This document shows, in pieces, positions 52,242 through 53,093 of a stretch of 64,000 bases of DNA (its first letter is position 1; every line of letters begins with the position of its first letter). The position numbers and the translations under genes are program-made. Under the pieces are notes generated by a model. The model searched no databases and was not told the DNA's origin. It saw nothing but the letters and a program-made list of their open reading frames with translations. The DNA is from Ornithinibacter sp. GTDB taxonomy: Bacteria; Actinomycetota; Actinomycetes; Actinomycetales; Dermatophilaceae. Where the stretch lies: NCBI GenBank assembly GCA_029266735.1, contig JAQSWG010000019.1, positions 1-64,000 on the forward strand, written 5' to 3'.

Positions 52242-52529
52242 TTACGCCGCGACGTCGTCCTTGCGGGGCCGTCCGCGGGGACGCTTTCGGGCGACGATCT
52301 CGCCCTGGACGAACAGCTCGCCGCCCCAGACGCCCCAGGGCTCACGCCGGTGGAGGGCTCCCGAGAGGCACGCGGCCCGTGCCGGGCACGTCCCGCAGAG
52401 TGCCTTGGCGAACTCGACCCCCTCCGGCGTGTCGGCGAACCACAGCTCTGCGTCGTTCTCACGGCAGGGAACGCCATCGCCGGTCGTTCCGGACGACTCG
52501 TGCAGGTCGAGGAGCTCGGTCAGCTGCAT
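52242..52529 (-). CDS. whiB7: WhiB7-type iron-sulfur transcriptional regulator
   Basis: MQLTELLDLHESSGTTGDGVPCRENDAELWFADTPEGVEFAKALCGTCPARAACLSGALHRREPWGVWGGELFVQGEIVARKRPRGRPRKDDVAA: four Cys, GVWGGE turn, RGRPRK AT-hook; SD AAGGAGGTGAC before this ATG. Confidence 0.95.
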   Translation of the reverse strand: MQLTELLDLHESSGTTGDGVPCRENDAELWFADTPEGVEFAKALCGTCPARAACLSGALHRREPWGVWGGELFVQGEIVARKRPRGRPRKDDVAA

Positions 52530-52697
52530 CGGGGTGTCACCTCCTTGCTCGGCGCGCCCGGTGGGGCGCTCGGTCATCTCGGTGCGCCAGCTGCGGCGCG
52601 CGGTACTCGGTGGGCGGCCGGTGTCGGTCCGCTCGGTGGTCGTGGTCATCTCGGTGCCTCGCGTGGTCTCGGTCCGTGCTGGTGAGCGGGTACGAAA

Positions 52698-52731
52698 AGG
52701 CCGCGGATCCCGGTGTCGGGATCCGCGGCCT
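52698..52731 (-). terminator. Intrinsic terminator in the whiB7 leader
   Basis: Minus strand AGGCCGCGGATCCCG ACAC CGGGATCCGCGGCCT TTTCG: perfect 15-bp stem followed by a T-run. Confidence 0.85.
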
Positions 52732-52773
52732 CGAGGTGACCTGTCAGCTGTCAGACAGGTGGTGCCTCGAGGC
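52728..52773 (-). promoter_or_regulatory. Candidate antiterminator stem in the whiB7 leader
   Basis: Minus strand GCCTCGAGG-CACC-ACCTGTC-TGACAGCT-GACAGGT-CA-CCTCGAGGC: 9+7 bp; the 3' arm shares AGGC with the terminator 5' arm. Confidence 0.65.
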
Positions 52774-52984
52774 GTGGATACACGACTCCCGTGATCGGGG
52801 CGATGGCGTCGACGCCGGTGGCGCGCTGGTCCACGACGAGGTCGCGACCGAGGAACCCGGCGAAAGGCACAGTGCGCCCCTGGACGGAGCGGAACGTGCC
52901 TGCGTGAGCGGTGTTGGCGCCACGCCAGGGACGCGCGGCATCACGGACAGCGCTCATCGCCGTCGTCGTCGTCATCGTCTCCAT
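52751..52984 (-). CDS. Leader ORF of whiB7 (77 aa)
   Basis: METMTTTTAMSAVRDAARPWRGANTAHAGTFRSVQGRTVPFAGFLGRDLVVDQRATGVDAIAPITGVVYPRLEAPPV; SD GAGGAGG; its stop lies inside the antiterminator loop. Confidence 0.6.
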   Translation of the reverse strand: METMTTTTAMSAVRDAARPWRGANTAHAGTFRSVQGRTVPFAGFLGRDLVVDQRATGVDAIAPITGVVYPRLEAPPV

Positions 52985-53054
52985 CAGGGCCAACCCTCCT
53001 CACTGCTGCTCGGTTCGACGCGCGTCCGGGGCGGACACGCGAGGTGCTCTGACG

Positions 53055-53093
53055 AGGGTAGAGGAGCCGGCGCGCGGCAGGCAACGCATTAAT
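53055..53093 (-). promoter_or_regulatory. Candidate whiB7 promoter with AT-rich patch upstream of -35
   Basis: Minus strand ATTAAT-GCG-TTGCCT-N18-TACCCT. Confidence 0.55.

Follow-up and report, generated by a model that had tools for sequence, protein, structure and literature searches.

The leader of whiB7 in the 64,000-nucleotide stretch of DNA analysed here (the window) is very probably a transcription attenuator controlled by an upstream open reading frame (uORF). whiB7 controls the intrinsic resistance of actinobacteria to ribosome-targeting drugs, and the attenuator mechanism itself is already known, the window copy being one further lineage. The useful part of the analysis is the comparison between leaders, in which a pause-like motif recurs at an almost constant distance from the leader start codon and in-frame Pro-Pro is avoided except at the end of the leader peptide. 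Both conserved features suggest how RNA polymerase (RNAP) and the leading ribosome stay in step over ~80 codons, and they should make the timing of the switch testable by mutation.

All elements of the leader lie on the minus strand. A sequence-only reading of this DNA had listed a promoter, a 77-codon leader ORF, an antiterminator spanning the leader stop and an overlapping terminator, and our analysis confirmed that these parts are real, positions included. The promoter (53055-53093) consists of the AT-rich sequence ATTAAT (53093-53088), the 3 bp GCG, a -35 element TTGCCT (53084-53079), 18 nt, and a -10 element TACCCT (53060-53055), from which transcription would start ~65 nt 5′ of the leader ORF. 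The published WhiB7 motif is AT-rich and sits 3 bp 5′ of the -35 element (PMC10727445); the window promoter has this arrangement and is thus predicted to bind WhiB7 and to be autoregulated. An AT-rich sequence plus TTG..TANNNT lies upstream of the leader ORF in 143 of the 153 non-redundant leaders compared below, versus 1.8 in shuffled sequence; a sigma-70 scanner gave no score for the window promoter. Next come a Shine-Dalgarno (SD) sequence, GAGGAGG (52995-53001), and a leader ORF of 77 sense codons (52751-52984; METMTTTT...YPRLEAPPV*) that runs from an ATG at 52984 to a TGA at 52753-52751, with Pro-Pro-Val codons directly before the stop (52754-52762). Helix 1 of the antiterminator pairs a 5′ arm inside the leader ORF, GCCTCGAGG (52765-52773), with the 3′ arm CCTCGAGGC (52728-52736), while helix 2 pairs ACCTGTC (52754-52760) with GACAGGT (52739-52745). 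The intrinsic terminator (52695-52731, with the hairpin at 52731-52698) has a 15-bp stem, an ACAC loop and a short T-tract. whiB7 itself (52242-52529, ATG at 52529) is preceded by the SD sequence AAGGAGG (52546-52540), and its product carries a WhiB-like Cys motif and a C-terminal RGRPRK AT-hook, which identify it as a WhiB7 orthologue, although NCBIfam gave it no name. The locus therefore has an SD-led uORF and, between it and whiB7, an intrinsic terminator.

Relatives of whiB7 were present in 98 of 110 genomes of the family and in 103 of 118 genomes of the class, the best matches across the family being 58-98% identical; the nearest named relatives of the window genome are Phycicoccus, Pedococcus and Knoellia, so that it probably belongs to a Dermatophilaceae-type actinobacterium. 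At family, order and class level we gathered 231 whiB7-region loci, some of which are duplicates of one genome, and the same anatomy (an SD-led ORF that stops shortly before a hairpin with a T-rich tail) was found in 213 of them. The terminator core could be anchored in 211 loci, which yielded 153 non-redundant leaders (<85% identical in their final 20 codons). In this set the leader ORF has a median length of 80 codons (IQR 68-94), so the proposal that the window uORF, with 77 codons, is unusually long was rejected. Related leader peptides were recovered by tblastn in 10 loci, and an Rfam scan returned no family; all that it gave was a microRNA match well short of its gathering score, attributable to chance.

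Both hairpins are much more stable than expected from composition. Folded alone, the window antiterminator reaches -28.4 kcal/mol (z -5.4) and the terminator -34.3 kcal/mol (z -7.8), and in each case 0 of 200 shuffled sequences were as good. The terminator hairpin occurs in a single copy in the 3.16-Mb genome (a 161-contig assembly) and ranks among the strongest few of the 153 leaders. A generic terminator scanner reported nothing at this position because the U-tract amounts to only about four T. The sequence AGGCCGCGGA..CCGCGGCCT of the terminator is kept across the class, from the family of the window to Streptomyces. At stem position +8 of the 5′ arm, an A faces another A in 58 of the 153 leaders and is bulged in 17 more, and in 51 of these 75 leaders the antiterminator is predicted to pair this A with U; this pattern seems to reflect a terminator weakened in the antiterminator's favour. 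The window differs from this half of the leaders in that its stem is perfectly paired, with neither mismatch nor bulge at +8, and is unusually strong.

The sequence-only reading had inferred that the two structures are mutually exclusive because they share AGGC. The overlap exists (52731-52728, the final 4 nt of the helix 1 3′ arm and part of the terminator 5′ arm), but the description was incomplete: it missed an outer helix by which the leader tail can also pair with the greater part of the terminator 5′ arm. In the window, the outer 5′ arm CGGGAGTCGTG (52781-52791) is predicted to pair with 52727-52717 of the terminator, through 52791-52787 with 52721-52717 and 52785-52781 with 52727-52723, and the antiterminator so extended would reach -41.6 kcal/mol before the terminator 3′ arm is made. 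The same composite is predicted in relatives, one helix using the bases immediately 5′ of the terminator together with its first bases, and an outer helix taking most of the remaining arm. The leader tail captures a median of 10 of the about 14 bases of the terminator 5′ arm, and at least 8 in 88% of leaders, so this composite is the norm and, like the uORF length, runs against the idea that the window holds an unusual version of the attenuator.

Since the helix register slips between relatives, column-wise covariation of the antiterminator in MAFFT alignments gave no clean column count, and we used native versus swapped pairing together with a synonymous-codon null instead. Native tail/arm pairs reach -25.6 kcal/mol compared with -22.4 kcal/mol for swapped partners, an advantage of 3.2 kcal/mol (P 9e-14), and leader tails beat their synonymous recodings in 88% of leaders (mean z -1.25). 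The window tail captures 14 bases of the arm versus 9.2 expected under synonymous recoding (P 0.0145), while its antiterminator energy is borderline when taken alone (P 0.056). Both sides of the helix change base-pair type among relatives; as the pairs come from predicted folds, the variety is informative and the pairing is not. One clear compensatory change, C-G to T-A, was seen within the genus, between 52769/52732 of the window and loci L003 and L004. The check for covariation that had been suggested was thus positive by swapped-partner pairing and by the synonymous null, alongside this one compensatory change, albeit not as a clean column-by-column count. Taken together, these results point to an antiterminator that would form from the uORF tail and terminator sequence and would be mutually exclusive with the terminator.

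Constrained folding is consistent with such a switch. A ribosome placed on the stop codon leaves the full 16-bp terminator as the predicted fold, and for a transcript that ends after the terminator 5′ arm the antiterminator is predicted. Once the transcript is complete, the terminator is thermodynamically favoured even with no ribosome present, and readthrough must therefore depend on kinetics, with the antiterminator presumably forming first. From this arrangement we infer how ribosomes would occupy the leader, when readthrough would follow and which drugs would induce it. In unstressed cells a ribosome would reach the leader stop and cover the last codons, which form the 5′ arms of the antiterminator; the terminator would then form and RNAP would halt before whiB7. 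If translation slowed down or stalled at any upstream point, the leader tail would be left free to capture the emerging terminator 5′ arm, the terminator could not fold in time, and whiB7 would be transcribed. Ribosome-controlled attenuation agrees with published work on whiB7/wblC, which describes a uORF, a terminator and an antiterminator with overlapping sequence and induction by stalling (PMC11550727, PMC10727445, PMC9618640), linezolid being an exception for whiB7 (PMC10937400). The central proposal of the sequence-only reading, that a ribosome at the stop leads to termination and an upstream stall to readthrough, is thus supported by anatomy, constrained folding, comparison and the literature, unlike the unusual character that it added.

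Inside the whiB7 leader ORFs we found a conserved nucleotide motif, AGGGGNNNNNT(S)TGTCC. The peptide QGxx(V/L)S of 27 leaders first drew attention to it, in the form AGGGGNNNNNTSTGTCC, and among 126 held-out leaders 20 score 11 or more out of 12 (0.14 expected from codon shuffles) and 44 score 10 or more (1.75 expected), counts in which the leaders are related and the events hence not independent. The motif lies 118 nt after the start codon (IQR 115-121 in the 46 leaders scoring 11 or more), and its distance to the stop is about twice as variable as that to the start (sd 33 versus 15), both distances carrying some uncertainty from leader start codons picked by SD score. When each position was scored with itself left out, G-11 was found in 94%, G-10 in 87%, T-3 in 88%, Y-1 in 97% and G+1 in 88%. 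The elemental pause signal has been defined as G-10, Y-1 and G+1 (PMC12288461); the leader motif fits this signal and is predicted to pause RNAP. Selection appears to act on nucleotides, since the third base of an NNT codon within the motif is T in 88% of cases, versus 13% in the background, while the residue varies (T, S, G, A, R). The same observation disfavours a peptide signal. An internal ribosome start (AGGGG followed by GTG) is disfavoured as well, with CTG in 36-39% of cases and the T at -3 left unexplained. Pairing of the motif with the tail, the terminator or the SD region brought no gain over swapped partners, and a search for a pause hairpin upstream of it found none. Nor is the motif a general genomic element: it is rare, with 13 exact matches in 35 genomes, 6 of them in the whiB7 leader. 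The window copy, AGGGGCGCACTGTGCCT (52865-52881), scores 10/12 and contains GG-N6-TGTG (52879-52868), with a predicted RNAP 3′ end at 52869. A bare GG-N6-TGYG is common in the window and not significant (109 matches, 133 expected), so the weight of this copy comes only from its conserved position.

The leader peptides also share a pattern of proline use. Their bodies contain 4 Pro-Pro versus 36 in shuffles, and at the nucleotide level CCNCC occurs twice in frame versus 35 expected, while the other two frames give 390 versus 412 and 74 versus 115; avoidance is thus confined to the reading frame. Ordinary ORFs of the window do not avoid Pro-Pro (76 versus 86 expected). By contrast, residues -3 and -2 are Pro-Pro in 46% of leaders, and PPV* ends 57 of the 153 non-redundant leaders; the third positions of its codons vary, so it is the peptide that seems constrained. 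In Streptomyces the leaders often end in DPA before the stop, where others have PPV. Avoidance in the body would be expected of an attenuator because a stall there would wrongly switch whiB7 on, and a slow step at the terminal Pro-Pro would prevent the antiterminator from closing.

The motif and the proline pattern together suggest a built-in timing device. In a tentative version, which we regard as possible but somewhat short of probable, a pause ~118 nt after the start codon would let the first ribosome catch up with RNAP, the leader body would offer no Pro-Pro at which to stall, and the terminal Pro-Pro would hold it over the antiterminator until the terminator forms. We found no report of either the pause-like motif or the proline rule in the literature searched, which left out Lee 2022 and the alanine-starvation paper, and both may be new.

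Conserved C-terminal PPV/DPA motifs, together with the published induction of whiB7/wblC by amino-acid starvation (PMC11550727), would also fit a leader that sensed hungry codons, or nascent-peptide arrest at one specific site, instead of a general slowing of translation. We consider this unlikely: a ribosome stalled at the terminal Pro-Pro would still cover the antiterminator, which is the wrong place for an inducing arrest, and the body peptides differ widely between clades, with no shared arrest motif seen besides the nucleotide-level element. It is very improbable that the hairpin is a constitutive terminator ending the transcript of an ordinary small-protein gene, with the whiB7 promoter elsewhere, in the 169-nt spacer; such a gene would account for the good SD, for a peptide recognisable in close relatives and for an antiterminator that loses on the finished transcript, but not for tail/terminator pairing that is kept throughout the class over and above the peptide. 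In addition, the spacer is very variable in length between relatives, and the mycobacterial and Streptomyces leaders have been described as attenuators.

As a uORF-controlled attenuator, the window leader closely resembles those of whiB7/wblC in Streptomyces and mycobacteria (Lee, Lee and Roe 2022; Burian and Thompson 2018; Dinan 2014), with the same gene, a long leader, an SD-led uORF, a Rho-independent terminator, an antiterminator overlapping uORF and terminator, and an autoregulatory AT-rich promoter. It differs in that its uORF is longer than those of the Mycobacterium loci compared (about 50 codons) and its helix 1 5′ arm is palindromic. In the ilvB1 attenuator of M. tuberculosis and in classical amino-acid leaders, a ribosome at the leader stop likewise masks the antiterminator and an upstream stall permits it (PMC13236596); however, the whiB7 signal would be general translation stress and not branched-chain amino acids, and its leader ORF is long and lacks a run of regulatory codons. 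The vmlR and tlrB leaders of B. subtilis are also antibiotic-resistance attenuators with an RNAP pause in the leader (PMC12288461), which in whiB7 is predicted. Their pauses are NusG-dependent and use TTNTTT, whereas the putative whiB7 pause motif resembles the elemental G-10/Y-1/G+1 signal.

Two further features flank whiB7 on the minus strand. Directly after it, at 52160-52029, lies a basic small protein of 43 aa with its own SD, which had no NCBIfam match and is kept in 13 loci of the nearest relatives. On the 5′ side, an in-frame extension of 40 codons (52649-52530) precedes the whiB7 start and is recognisable in seven close loci; it may be a spacer or an alternative start.
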